A stretch of 64,000 nucleotides of DNA, from contig NZ_CP139715.1 in the NCBI RefSeq assembly GCF_034377285.1, positions 4,324,001 through 4,388,000 of the forward strand, in the 5' to 3' direction. The translations under genes were made by a program, and so were the position numbers. Of the stretch, positions 37,392 to 40,573 are shown in pieces (the stretch's first letter is position 1; each line of letters starts with the position of its first letter). The DNA is from Thalassobaculum sp. OXR-137 (lineage in GTDB: Bacteria; Pseudomonadota; Alphaproteobacteria; Thalassobaculales; Thalassobaculaceae). The notes under the pieces were generated by a model, which had not been told where the DNA came from, made no database searches, and worked only from the letters and a program-made list of their open reading frames with translations.

Positions 37392-38246
37392 ATGACCCTG
37401 TCTTTGCGGCGCCTGAACCCGGTGATCGGGACGGAGATCAGCGGCATTCAGGTCACGCGCGACCTGGGCGACAATGCGTTCGGCGAGCTGTATCAGGCCT
37501 GGCTCGACAGCGGCGGGCTGCTGGTCCTGCGCGACCAGGAGCTCGAACCGGAGGACCAGATCGCCTTCTCGCAGCGCTTCGGCGAGCTGGACCCGCTGAA
37601 GGGCCAGACGGTGGAGCCCTACCTGCTGCCGGGCCATCCGGAGATCTACCGGGTCTCCAACAAGGTCAAGGACGGCCAGAAGCTCGGCCGGCAGCGCGCC
37701 GGCACCTACTGGCATTCCGACAACAGCCACAAGGAGCGCGCCGCCAAGTGCTCGCTGCTCTACGGCATCGAGGTGCCGGAATATGGCGGCGACACCCAGT
37801 TCGCGGCGATGACCAAGGCCTGGGACGAGCTGTCCCCGACCTTCCAGAAGATGATCGAGGGCCTGCGCTGCGTGCACGATTTCGAGAAGGCCAAGTCCGG
37901 CAGCTTCAAGAACGAGACCGTCACCGACAGTCACCTGCAGGCCACCCCGGCGCTCAGCCACCCGCTGGTCCGCACCCACCCCGAGACCGGCCGCAAGTGC
38001 CTGTTTCTCAATGCCGGCGTGGTGACCCATATCGAGGGCATGTCGGTGGAGGAGAGCCAGCCGATCCTCGACTACCTCTACAAGCACTGCACCCGGCCGG
38101 AATTCGTCTACCGCCACCAGTGGCGCAAGGGCGACCTGTTGGTCTGGGACAACCGCTCGACCATGCACTACGCCGTGGCAGATTACGACGGCGTCGGCGA
38201 CCGCTACATGCACCGCACCACGGTGTTCGGCGACCGCCCGGTCTGA
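37392..38246 (+). CDS. TauD/TfdA family 2-oxoglutarate dioxygenase
   Basis: 284 residues. The N-terminal PVIGTEISGIQVTRDL is typical of the family. Iron ligands are His and Asp in GTYWHSDNSHKE and His in DNRSTMHYA; the 2-oxoglutarate-binding Arg is in YMHRTTVFGD. The SD GGGAGAA precedes the ATG. Members use taurine, aryloxy acids or other small acids, so the substrate cannot be named. The divergent 2-hydroxyacid dehydrogenase may act on a product. Confidence 0.87.
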   Translation: MTLSLRRLNPVIGTEISGIQVTRDLGDNAFGELYQAWLDSGGLLVLRDQELEPEDQIAFSQRFGELDPLKGQTVEPYLLPGHPEIYRVSNKVKDGQKLGRQRAGTYWHSDNSHKERAAKCSLLYGIEVPEYGGDTQFAAMTKAWDELSPTFQKMIEGLRCVHDFEKAKSGSFKNETVTDSHLQATPALSHPLVRTHPETGRKCLFLNAGVVTHIEGMSVEESQPILDYLYKHCTRPEFVYRHQWRKGDLLVWDNRSTMHYAVADYDGVGDRYMHRTTVFGDRPV

Positions 38247-38261
38247 CCGAAACCCGCGCTG

Positions 38262-38305
38262 CCGGCGCGTAAGCGCGCGCTTACGCGGGCGCCTTTACGC
38301 GCCGG
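38262..38305. promoter_or_regulatory. Compound palindrome with alternative hairpins
   Basis: A perfect 20-base palindrome (GCGTAAGCGCGCGCTTACGC, 38267-38286) shares its left half with a second stem, CCGGCGCGTAA (38262-38272) with TTACGCGCCGG (38295-38305). Only one can form at a time. It lies between the dioxygenase stop and the PepSY gene, 86 bases before the latter, so it could end the first transcript or hold operators for the second. Confidence 0.75.
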
Positions 38306-38390
38306 TGCGATGGCGGAGCGGCGTTCGGAAGGACAGCTTGGCGGGACCGACACAAGGCGTGTCTGCCCGTACCCAAGCTGGAGAAAACCG

Positions 38391-38654
38391 ATGATCCGAA
38401 CCGCCCTTCTGGCCGCCCTCTTCGCCGCCGTCATCACCACCGCCGGCCTCGCCTCCGACCTGACCCCCGGCACCGTCCTGGGCACGACACCGGAAGCGGC
38501 CGCCGCCGCCCTCACCAAGGCGGGCTACACCGTGCAGAAGCAGGAGCGCGAGCACGGCCGCATCGAGATCAAGGCGACCCGCGACGGCAAGCGCTACGAG
38601 ATCAAGGTGGACGAGACCACCGGTGCCGTAACCGCCATCGAGCTCGACGACTGA
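38391..38654 (+). CDS. Secreted PepSY domain protein
   Basis: 87 residues. A signal peptide (LLAALFAAVITTAGLAS) ends near residue 22. The rest is one PepSY domain: ALTKAGYTVQKQEREHGRIEIKATRDGKRYEIKVDETTGAVTAIELDD. Such periplasmic domains are found with cytochrome b561-type proteins and are thought to bind or inhibit partners. The stop overlaps the cytochrome gene start as TGATG, so the two are translationally coupled. Confidence 0.87.
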   Translation: MIRTALLAALFAAVITTAGLASDLTPGTVLGTTPEAAAAALTKAGYTVQKQEREHGRIEIKATRDGKRYEIKVDETTGAVTAIELDD

Positions 38655-39265
38655 TGGCCGCCGCCGAACCCATCGCGGCATCGGGTCCCGTCTGGGACCC
38701 GATCGTCCGCATCACCCATTGGACCGTGGCCGCCGCCATCGTCATCAACGGCCTGATCGACGAGGGCGGATCGACCCTGCATATCTGGATCGGCTATGGC
38801 GCGCTGGCCATGCTGGTTCTGCGCCTGCTCTGGGGATTCATCGGACCGGTGGAGGCGCGCTTCTCCTCCTTCCCGTTCAGCATCTCCGGCGCGGTCGATC
38901 ACCTGACCAACGTCTTCACCGGCCACCACAAGACCCACCGCTCGCATAATCCGGCGGGCAGCGTCATGGTCTATGCACTCTGGGGCATGCTGACCGTGAC
39001 TGCCGCGACCGGCGTGATCCTGGAAACCGAGCCTTTCCCGACCGAGCACCGGCAGGAGGTCTCCGTCCAGATCGACAGCCACGAGGACGGGGAGGAGAAC
39101 GAGTTGGAGGAGATCGTCGAGGAGACCCACGAGATCGCCGCCAACCTGCTGCTGATCCTGGCCGCCCTGCACGTCGCCGGCGTGGCGGTGGAACAGCGGC
39201 TTTCCGGCCGGAACTTGGTTCGTGGCATGATACGCGGCCAGTCGACCCGCCGGAGCGCCGAGTGA
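38654..39265 (+). CDS. Cytochrome b561-type membrane protein
   Basis: 203 residues with about four membrane helices. Likely haem-ligating histidines lie in RITHWTVAAAIVI (His22), STLHIWIGYG (His43) and the last helix LLILAALHVAGVAVE. A strongly acidic stretch (HEDGEENELEEIVEETHE) stands between helices 3 and 4. It probably passes electrons across the inner membrane between quinone and a periplasmic partner. It is coupled with the PepSY gene before it and the LuxR gene after it (GTGA overlap). Confidence 0.86.
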   Translation: MAAAEPIAASGPVWDPIVRITHWTVAAAIVINGLIDEGGSTLHIWIGYGALAMLVLRLLWGFIGPVEARFSSFPFSISGAVDHLTNVFTGHHKTHRSHNPAGSVMVYALWGMLTVTAATGVILETEPFPTEHRQEVSVQIDSHEDGEENELEEIVEETHEIAANLLLILAALHVAGVAVEQRLSGRNLVRGMIRGQSTRRSAE

Positions 39266-39852
39266 CGCCAGCCGAAGAGATGCATCAACGACCGCCGGAC
39301 CGCCCGGCGGTCTTGAAGTCCGCCCCGGGGCGGCGGGCCCTGGTGCTCGCCGGCCTGCTGGTGCTGCAGACGCTGTGCACGGTGTTCTTCGTCGCCGACG
39401 TGGCCGGCGACCTGCTGCTGGACGGCCCGGACCTGCACACGGTGTTCGAGGCGGCAGTCTCGGCGGCGCTGGGCCTGGGCGTCATCTTCACCGGGCTGGA
39501 GATGCGCCGGACGCTGGAGCGCTCGCGCCGGGCCGAAGCGGCGGTTTCCGTCGCCTCCGGTGCCTTCGGGGAGCTGATCGCCGGCTATTTCGAGCGCTGG
39601 CGGTTGACCCCGGCCGAATCCGACGTGGCGCTGTTCGCGTTGAAGGGGTTCGACGTCGCGGAGATCGCCGATCTGCGCGGATCGGCGGCCGGGACCGTGC
39701 GCGCCCAGCTCACCCGGGTCTACGCCAAGGCCGGCGTGTCGAACCGCGCGCAGCTTCTCGCGGTTTTCACCGACGATCTGCTGGCCGGCGCGCTGCCGGG
39801 GCTGGACCGGCGATCCGCCGTCAGTTCGGCGCCCGACGAGGGGCCGGCGTAA
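39262..39852 (+). CDS. Membrane-anchored LuxR-type regulator
   Basis: 196 residues. Two membrane segments come first (ALVLAGLLVLQTLCTVFFVAD and AAVSAALGLGVIFTGLEM), then a short helical linker, then a LuxR-type helix-turn-helix: WRLTPAESDVALFALKGFDVAEIADLRGSAAGTVRAQLTRVYAKAGVSNRAQLLAVF. The start is a GTG overlapping the cytochrome stop; an ATG six codons later is possible. It likely controls its own operon from the membrane in response to redox or the PepSY protein. The gene end overlaps the small minus-strand gene by 32 bases. Confidence 0.84.
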   Translation: MTPAEEMHQRPPDRPAVLKSAPGRRALVLAGLLVLQTLCTVFFVADVAGDLLLDGPDLHTVFEAAVSAALGLGVIFTGLEMRRTLERSRRAEAAVSVASGAFGELIAGYFERWRLTPAESDVALFALKGFDVAEIADLRGSAAGTVRAQLTRVYAKAGVSNRAQLLAVFTDDLLAGALPGLDRRSAVSSAPDEGPA

Positions 39853-40057
39853 CGGCCGCCACCTCCTCGATCCGCTCGCATTTGACGGTGACCTCGCCGA
39901 GTGTGAACGAGCCGTAGGAGCGCTCGAGCGCACCGCCTCCGACCAGATAGCCCAGCCGCTCGCAGGCTTCTTTGTTTTCCAGCGTGGCCACGTTCGTCCG
40001 ATAGGCGCAGACGTCACCGTTGAGCGAACACACCACGATCATTGCCAAGTGCCACAT
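39821..40057 (-). CDS. Small exported protein of unknown function
   Basis: 78 residues from the ATG at 40057 (starts at 40042 or a GTG at 40099 are also possible). The short hydrophobic start WHLAMIVVCSL could be an export signal or anchor. The rest has three or four cysteines (NGDVCAYRTNV, KEACERLGYL, EVTVKCERIEE) and no known motif. No good ribosome-binding site is seen for any start, and the 3' end overlaps the luxR gene, so it is uncertain. Confidence 0.5.
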   Translation of the reverse strand: MWHLAMIVVCSLNGDVCAYRTNVATLENKEACERLGYLVGGGALERSYGSFTLGEVTVKCERIEEVAAVTPAPRRAPN

Positions 40058-40067
40058 GAGGAAAAGC

Positions 40068-40110
40068 GTGCGCGCACACGGTGCGCACGTCAAGCGCACT
40101 TTGTGCGCTT
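40068..40110. promoter_or_regulatory. Cluster of GTGCGC palindromes
   Basis: Three dyads occur in 43 bases: GTGCGCGCAC (40068-40077), GTGCGCAC (40081-40088) and AAGCGCAC-TTT-GTGCGCTT (40092-40110). They lie just upstream of the small minus-strand gene and downstream of the response regulator. They could be operators or the transcription end of the regulator gene. Confidence 0.6.
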
Positions 40111-40177
40111 CATGGCGATTTCATTACAGACAGACCGCGATGGTATCCACAAGCCGCCCAGGCGCTCCAGCCGGCAG

Positions 40178-40573
40178 CTACATCCGGAACAGCAGCTCGA
40201 CCTTCTTCTTCAGCGCCTCGGGGGAGAAGGGTTTGACGACATAGGCATCGACATCGAGTTCCCGGGCCTGCAGCACCGCATCGGTCTGCTTGCGGCCGGT
40301 CAGCATGATGAACTTCAGGGGCTGGTGATACATGCGGACGTAGCGCAGCAGCTCGATGCCGGAGATGGTCGGCATGTTCCAGTCGGAGATCACGAGCTGG
40401 AAGGTACCGCGCTGGCTGTCCAGCGCCTTCACCGCCTCGGCGCCGTCGCGGCAGTAGACGATATCGGTGATGCCGGCGAGGCGCAGCGCGCCGCGGGCAA
40501 GCTTGCTGGCCATCTCCTCGTCCTCGGCGAGGAGGACCCGCAGGCCCGAAAAATCGCGTCCCAACTCCGTCAT
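40178..40573 (-). CDS. CheY-like single-domain response regulator
   Basis: 131 residues, a receiver domain only. The acidic pair is in VLLAEDEEMAS, the phosphorylated Asp in LVISDWNMPTISG, Thr in FIMLTGR and Lys in AYVVKPFSP. It has no output domain and must act by binding a partner. It lies 19 bases downstream of the hybrid kinase and is its probable phosphorelay partner. Confidence 0.92.
   Translation of the reverse strand: MTELGRDFSGLRVLLAEDEEMASKLARGALRLAGITDIVYCRDGAEAVKALDSQRGTFQLVISDWNMPTISGIELLRYVRMYHQPLKFIMLTGRKQTDAVLQARELDVDAYVVKPFSPEALKKKVELLFRM

Follow-up and report, generated by a model that had tools for sequence, protein, structure and literature searches.

In a 64,000-nucleotide stretch of the Thalassobaculum sp. 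OXR-137 genome (hereafter the window; genome size 5.65 Mb, contig NZ_CP139715.1, positions 4324001-4388000), three consecutive genes encode a small PepSY protein, a cytochrome b561 and a LuxR-type regulator carried on two membrane helices, and a compound palindrome lies upstream of them. Comparison across relatives showed that this palindrome tracks the recognition-helix class of the LuxR protein and not its partner genes. We favor, with moderate confidence, a reading in which the operon is a self-contained membrane one-component signalling unit, whose LuxR protein binds its own promoter, probably activates it, and is coupled to a metal-linked b561/PepSY device. Within that reading, sequence comparison strongly implies LuxR binding to the conserved site; activation of the LuxR protein's own operon, judged from operator position, is probable; and the metal-linked chemistry and signal are conjectural. 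The genes and the operator are as follows, with loci and genomes of the comparison cited below by number (L and G).

38391..38654, + strand: PepSY_2 gene, 87 amino acids (aa), product probably periplasmic (open reading frame (ORF) and Pfam profile)
38654..39265, + strand: cytochrome b561 gene, 203 aa, with conserved His 22, 43, 159 and 173 (profile, alignment and model)
39262..39852, + strand: LuxR/GerE regulator gene, 196 aa, with two N-terminal membrane helices, recognition helix TVRAQL (145-150) and a D46, D50, H59, E63 tetrad
38269..38284, + strand: operator palindrome, half-sites 1 and 2 (GTAAGC-N4-GCTTAC), kept in all 10 family genomes with the trio
38295..38300, + strand: operator half-site 3 (TTACGC in the window, RTMAGC in relatives), a direct repeat of half-site 1 at +26

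ORFs and Pfam profiles bore out the three overlapping genes proposed in the initial annotation, with overlaps of TGATG at 38652-38656 (PepSY/b561) and GTGA at 39262-39265 (b561/luxR).

Operator and recognition helix

The palindrome region (38262-38305), which had been noted before as a compound palindrome, contains a perfect 11-bp inverted repeat (38266-38287) and a 17-nt pair (38262-38278/38289-38305) that is 88% complementary. The site has the consensus RTMAGC-N4-GCTTAY-N10-RTMAGC, and the palindrome makes up two of its three half-sites. Among 36 genomes of the family, LuxR matches at E <= 0.001 occurred in 14 and a complete trio at one place in 10; all ten trios carry GTAAGC-N4-GCTTAC-N10-GTAAGC with minor changes and exact spacing. 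At up to two mismatches the complete site was found once per genome in each of the ten and in none of the other 26 family genomes, and because the search pattern was derived from the ten trio sites, the weight lies on its absence from those 26. Relaxing the family search to three mismatches added three matches away from the operon: G016 and G020 share an identical one, and the third is in G024. In a named set (the best 80 of 107 relatives from a scan of species genomes with ten family LuxRs; closest among them Thalassobaculum litoreum DSM 18839, at 84% identity), 69 of 73 operon loci scored at least 14 of 19 against the site, compared with at most 13 in downstream control regions (n = 75) and at most 14 in shuffled sequences (20 per locus). 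The family and named sets overlap, with L034-L037, L039, L040 and L042 being the same as L004-L008, L010 and L011.

Gene content varied behind the same site. Of 77 loci with enough upstream sequence, 49 encode PepSY and LuxR in the window order (with b561 as well, except at L063), 24 encode b561 and LuxR with no PepSY match, mostly in Sphingomonadales and caulobacters, and four encode neither partner. No PepSY was seen among the listed upstream ORFs of at least 50 aa at the 24 b561-LuxR loci, which retain the operator; therefore PepSY is, as far as these sequences tell, an accessory part of the unit and cannot be its sole input. At one Caulobacter locus a small secreted-looking, Asp/Arg/His-rich ORF sits in PepSY's place (L086:3051-3308). 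The palindrome precedes PepSY-b561-LuxR groups, b561-LuxR groups without PepSY and some lone LuxR genes. LuxR proteins of the wider family (E <= 1e-15) occurred in 20 of 385 genomes of a class-wide draw and in 39 of 398 of a phylum-wide draw.

The relation between palindrome and recognition helix was examined in 129 loci with more than 1000 upstream bases, taken from the named set, the class and phylum draws, and stretches chosen by place, and reduced to 127 by removing two repeats. Of the 84 loci with a T[VIT]R[AVS]Q[LM] helix (the core helix) in their LuxR, 80 had the palindrome (at least 11 of 12 positions), versus 2 of 43 with other helices; split by residue 147, it accompanied Arg in 82 of 99 loci and Lys in 0 of 28. 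The counts before removal were 80/84 for the core helix, 2/45 for other helices and 0/30 for Lys, with a Fisher p of ~1e-17 for the last that should be discounted, since each helix class is a clade as well. Loci with 1000 or fewer upstream bases (L073, L079, L097) and repeats (L139, L140, L123, L135, L138, L147) had been set aside before counting; the two repeats removed afterwards were one member of each of two further Lys-locus pairs (L134, the same as L168; L156 and L157, identical over the last 150 residues). The association held among loci from L117 on, which were found by profile or place and not by helix pattern: the palindrome occurred in 9 of 10 with a core helix and in 1 of 40 without. 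It also held across gene content: the palindrome was found in 75 of 76 core-helix loci with b561, was absent from six complete trios with a Lys helix, and stood at the gene's own start in four of seven lone core-helix LuxR genes (L106, L119, L149, L151); at L119 the palindrome is internal to the longest ORF predicted, so the gene there is taken to begin further in. A lone LuxR gene without the palindrome, L062, belongs to the Lys class. The trio is a conserved unit (in ten of the 36 family genomes and in many other Alphaproteobacteria). Conservation of the palindrome (in all ten family trios and in those 80 core-helix loci), together with the site's link to the recognition helix, supports the operator function that the initial annotation had suggested for the palindrome.

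Perfect TAAAC-N4-GTTTA palindromes occurred in 4 of 30 Lys-class loci and in 0 of 102 Arg-class loci. Three of the four (L152, L153, L158) carry TAAACC-N2-GGTTTA upstream of the gene group and the fourth (L168) TAAAC-N4-GTTTA; at L153, L158 and L168 an extra GTTTA lies downstream of the palindrome in the opposite orientation. The common TAA-N8-TTA frame, with its fourth base changed from G to A, would fit an altered helix, though four cases are few. For the TVKAHL class no palindrome could be defined. Distant LuxR relatives that adjoin other b561 genes in varied orientations (L160, L163, L165, L167, L173) have no TAAGC palindrome.

Promoter position and mode of regulation

A column profile of 68 sites revealed two further conserved elements downstream of the operator, A(0.96)T(1.00)[GC]G(0.93) at +41 to +44 and C(0.72)A(0.72)nnT(0.60) at +65 to +69, in columns that lie outside the positions used for site selection and that survive thinning to 39 and to 11 representatives by LuxR identity. 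Reading +42 to +47 as -35 and +65 to +70 as -10 gives a 17-bp spacer ahead of the trio's ATG at 38391.

38311..38316, + strand: putative -35 (TGGCGG), within a conserved AT[GC]G[AC] element that starts at 38310 (column profile of 68 sites)
38334..38339, + strand: putative -10 (CAGCTT), after a 17-bp spacer, with transcription expected to start at ~38346

We infer that these are weak sigma70-like elements at a constant distance from the operator, which would place the palindrome upstream of the transcription start, on untranscribed DNA. A generic consensus scan, of a kind that can miss other promoter types, found no sigma70 promoter at the operon, so the assignment is drawn from conservation. 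On this numbering the palindrome would be centered at about -69 and half-site 3 at about -48, an activator's position. In five loci (L078, L089, L107, L144, L145), read by eye, N9 replaces N10 before half-site 3 and the -35 element shifts along by 1 bp, as expected if a protein on half-site 3 touches polymerase.

These positions bear on what the palindrome does and what binds it. The initial annotation had seen a switchable hairpin with two mutually exclusive stems, a possible attenuator, and the palindrome could also be imagined as a terminator of the upstream tauD-like gene. Both stems are present in the window, and the RNA fold of 38247-38395 is strong (z = -3.98), yet that segment covers both hairpins and so gives no proof that the palindrome is transcribed. 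The second stem did not prove conserved: over 68 relatives its mean longest match is 4.16 bp, near the 3.91 bp of mispaired controls, against 11 bp in the window, where half-site 3 reads TTACGC and by chance complements half-site 1. Rfam gave no match in 37900-40200, a terminator scan found no terminator-like site at the palindrome, the putative promoter lies downstream of it, and the same palindrome precedes other gene arrangements; the attenuator claim is not supported, and any such RNA function appears extremely improbable. A second hairpin, at 38334-38380, was considered as a conserved leader and dropped, as it overlaps the putative -10. That some other regulator binds the palindrome, with LuxR a mere passenger, is likewise very improbable, given that the palindrome follows the LuxR helix class across partner genes and occurs with lone LuxR genes.

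Harder to set aside is the sign of regulation. Negative autoregulation, in which LuxR would repress its own operon until a signal released it, is common among small regulators, and the site is close to the promoter; we nevertheless regard it as unlikely. The half-sites lie upstream of the putative -35 and -10 and not over them, both hexamers are weak (the consensus scan, with the limit given above, detects none), and half-site 3 and the -35 move jointly in the five N9 loci. These features suit positive autoregulation better, and it is the mode that we propose for the operon.

The membrane proteins and their candidate chemistry

The window LuxR scored 22.9 bits against GerE (PF00196), just under the 23.5-bit cut-off, and 48 of 66 relatives matched that profile at E <= 0.001. 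As the initial annotation had surmised, its helix-turn-helix (HTH) is carried on two membrane helices: an AlphaFold2 model (mean confidence, pLDDT, 87.6) has a helix at 22-54, a tight turn, and a helix at 58-112 that continues into the HTH, which shows the four-helix fold by Foldseek. The best Foldseek rows, RcsB, VraR and LiaR (probability 0.99-1.00, E 0.04-0.1), covered mostly the DNA-binding domain, and neither the LuxR nor the b561 model had a Foldseek match at E <= 0.001; a LuxR profile search of PDB sequences gave five regulators, each aligned over the GerE region. A receiver domain (PF00072), as two-component response regulators have, was absent from the window protein and from 66 of 66 relatives at E <= 0.001. 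The positive-inside rule is used to assign membrane protein topology. Because mean net charge over 81 LuxRs runs from +2.7 before the first transmembrane helix (TM1) through -3.9 at residues 46-63 to +1.5 after TM2, the turn between the helices is predicted to be periplasmic. It is flanked by a DxxxD/HxxxE tetrad; across 66 sequences, D46 and E63 never vary, and conservation at D50 and H59 is at least 90%.

For the second protein, the initial annotation's b-type cytochrome with an acidic loop was confirmed by profile score and loop charge. It matches Ni_hydr_CYTB (PF01292) at 88.1 bits (cut-off 30.1) and misses the Ni/Fe-hydrogenase cytochrome b model TIGR02125 (26.7 versus 121.5), and no formate dehydrogenase or hydrogenase was present among the eight window proteins scanned with Pfam. 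H22, H43, H159 and H173 are invariant in 53 sequences and are the predicted heme ligands. All 74 sequences compared carry a negative TM3-TM4 loop, with a mean charge of -9.1 and a net charge of -13 in the window protein; the TM1-TM2 loop averages -0.9. The AlphaFold2 model has four long helices and resembles FdnI (1kqf_C, Z 13.2) and E. coli superoxide oxidase, CybB (5oc0, Z 13.0, root-mean-square deviation 3.5 over 150 residues), with which it would share a four-helix diheme b561 fold, at Z scores of ~13, a level that helical bundles can reach through a similar arrangement of helices alone. A PDB sequence search with b561 gave nothing significant (best E 0.51). Unlike CybB and FdnI, the window b561 has a LuxR protein as its partner.

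The 87-aa PepSY protein scored 43.6 bits against PepSY_2 (PF13670; cut-off 24.3), and its family has a mean charge of -3.4 (50 sequences with a crude signal cut; range -14 to +29). In PDB sequences it had one weak match, a PepSY-M4 propeptide record (E 0.049). Heme-bearing membrane helices with one or more PepSY domains on the periplasmic side are also found in the PepSY_TM reductases FoxB, which reduces ferrisiderophore, and CrpH, which perhaps acts on copper, as described in passages of PMC13038864, and in VciB, for which iron reductase activity is mentioned in PMC8238504. The PepSY_TM proteins are single chains, in contrast to the separate PepSY_2 and b561 ORFs described here, of which the former is missing from many loci. 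PepSY ferric reductases are also cited in PMC12817903, which is otherwise not relevant to the trio.

Clustering of neighboring ORFs (at least 90 aa, in loci with a b561 match, keeping families that recur in at least four other loci) pointed to a possible substrate. VIT1 proteins transport Fe2+ or Mn2+. VIT1 genes (PF01988; 222.9 and 205.4 bits for the two proteins tested) recurred in ten loci, all Sphingomonadales without PepSY; seven lie immediately 3' of luxR on the same strand, with a 4-bp overlap in five, and three directly precede the operator. A comparable neighborhood is that of MsrQ-like flavinylation clusters with VIT1, interpreted in the relevant part of PMC8238504 as iron reductase plus transporter; there too a membrane electron-transfer gene adjoins VIT1, although b561 belongs to another family. 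Because of the VIT1 neighbors, the acidic b561 loop, the LuxR tetrad, and the MsrQ-like and PepSY_TM precedents, a periplasmic metal, most likely iron, is our first candidate for the substrate or signal, one to which we would give a little under even chances. The redox state of quinone or superoxide ranks next.

Weighed against the metal proposal is a b561 that works as a superoxide:quinone oxidoreductase of the CybB type, with LuxR responding to superoxide or to quinone redox state. Its appeal lies in the resemblance of the b561 model to 5oc0 (Z 13.0), the four conserved His, and the b561 genes that adjoin the five distant LuxR relatives noted above, yet FdnI is equally close (Z 13.2) and the charge of the periplasmic face is opposite. 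Superoxide oxidase has a cationic periplasmic antenna of R30, R35, R38, R108 and K134, according to the portion of PMC11869295 that treats it, whereas here, by loop charge, the TM3-TM4 loop is acidic in every sequence compared. We therefore think this chemistry unlikely.

On the mechanism that we propose, LuxR would be anchored in the inner membrane, its HTH facing the cytoplasm, and occupy the three half-sites at 38269-38300: a dimer would cover the palindrome, and another subunit would take half-site 3, immediately 5' of the -35. It would thereby activate its own operon, and the genome would hold few or no further full sites. The diheme b561 and the acidic periplasmic PepSY protein may form a small transmembrane electron-transfer device acting most likely on a periplasmic metal ion or complex, and LuxR could read the outcome at the periplasmic tip of its membrane hairpin, with DxxxD and HxxxE on the adjoining ends of its two helices. 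As the initial annotation suggested, electron flow or PepSY binding may be what the regulator reads. A broader generalization is possible, but we would expect it to fail more readily than to hold: that these proteins are a widespread new sensor class, in which a two-helix LuxR binds metal through DxxxD/HxxxE, with metal redox state or supply set by diheme b561 (with or without PepSY), and activates its own tripartite TAAGC operator, a Lys-for-Arg helix pairing with the TAAAC palindrome through a co-change of one residue and one base.

Several observations weigh against our reading. Helix classes coincide with clades, so the loci are not independent, and the 80-locus named set was fetched with peptide patterns, one of which covers part of the recognition helix. 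Three of the seven lone core-helix LuxR genes lack the palindrome (L052, L108, L142; the L052 region contains runs of N); these are also the core-helix exceptions, together with L099, where it is degraded (10/12). The three-part pattern at up to one mismatch is present in just 5 of 32 LuxR-bearing genomes of other families, a low yield that we attribute to the many LuxRs there of other helix classes and to some N9-spaced sites, and a single stray match occurred in 3 of 20 control genomes. The genome-wide searches covered the complete three-part site, and targets with the palindrome only fall outside that scope. The case for activation is one of position, and the VIT1 linkage is limited to Sphingomonadales. 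The tetrad, too, is not strict, with DDHE in 72 of 84 core-helix loci, H59 replaced by Glu, Tyr or Val in eight and D50 by Glu in three; paralogs without b561 have it as well, and of 12 other paralogs listed only L162 deviates.

Precedents, neighboring genes and related loci

We found no description of a PepSY-b561-LuxR unit in the open-licence PMC literature; each protein comes from a known family, and their combination, like the operator and its pairing with the helix, seems undescribed in the literature searched. The best curated model for the window LuxR is the LIC13292 family of regulators (NCBIfam NF047608), which every one of 66 relatives matches at E <= 0.001 and whose cut-off the window protein misses (39.1 versus 200 bits). 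Among characterized regulators, the closest likeness is to DadR, HcdR and CadR of Coriobacteriia, which passages of PMC9734109 describe as LuxR one-component activators with 10-12 transmembrane helices encoded near the genes they control. They too are membrane-embedded LuxR-type regulators near a predicted target, but they belong to another phylum and have 10-12 helices where ours has two before the HTH; those passages mention no b561 or PepSY partner. Among b561 cytochromes, an Fnr-controlled monocistronic gene of Sphingopyxis (in part of PMC7713065) and a stress-induced gene of Dinoroseobacter (in part of PMC4373377) have been reported; the word LuxR is absent from the main texts of both, and neither b561 is linked to this family.

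The analysis turns the previously unannotated trio into a concrete regulatory circuit, for which an operator, a promoter and a binding protein are predicted and candidate sensing residues named, and which is common to Thalassobaculum, Nisaea, Rhodobacteraceae, Sphingomonadales and caulobacters. Should the metal reading prove right, it would supply a physiological signal for a group of b561 cytochromes. The pairing of helix and operator provides natural material for studying how DNA is selected by GerE domains.

In the window, a TauD-like dioxygenase gene upstream of the trio ends at 38246. On the 3' side the opposite strand carries a short ORF without a family, a response regulator and a hybrid histidine kinase, and GTGCGC/GCGCAC repeats are packed at 40067-40110, between the short - strand ORF and the response regulator. 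A second two-helix LuxR of the same genome (G000:C1:493499-493993; L019, L166), at 40% identity, adjoins an Asp-rich RTX-like ORF on the opposite strand. Elsewhere, the neighbor clustering also returned local synteny in the Tabrizicola/Rhodobacter group and an unassigned membrane-like ORF family of ~30% identity near the Sphingomonadales duo (L075:1763-3112, - strand; L078, L085, L087, L094). L089 (CP059262.1), labelled Exiguobacterium profundum (a metagenome-assembled genome, MAG), is an alphaproteobacterial locus with Tabrizicola/Rhodobacter-like neighbors, and its label is probably wrong.

PepSY-like proteins also occur near two-helix LuxRs that have no b561. None of the five LuxRs of L168-L171, which lie near such proteins, keeps the tetrad intact, and four of the five PepSY-like proteins listed (L168, L169, L171) have poly-Asp/Glu or Gly-rich tails:

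L168:2002-2520: secreted-looking PepSY-like protein with a long poly-Asp/Glu or Gly-rich tail
L168:714-1277: the same type
L169:1517-2167: the same type
L171:3040-3615: the same type

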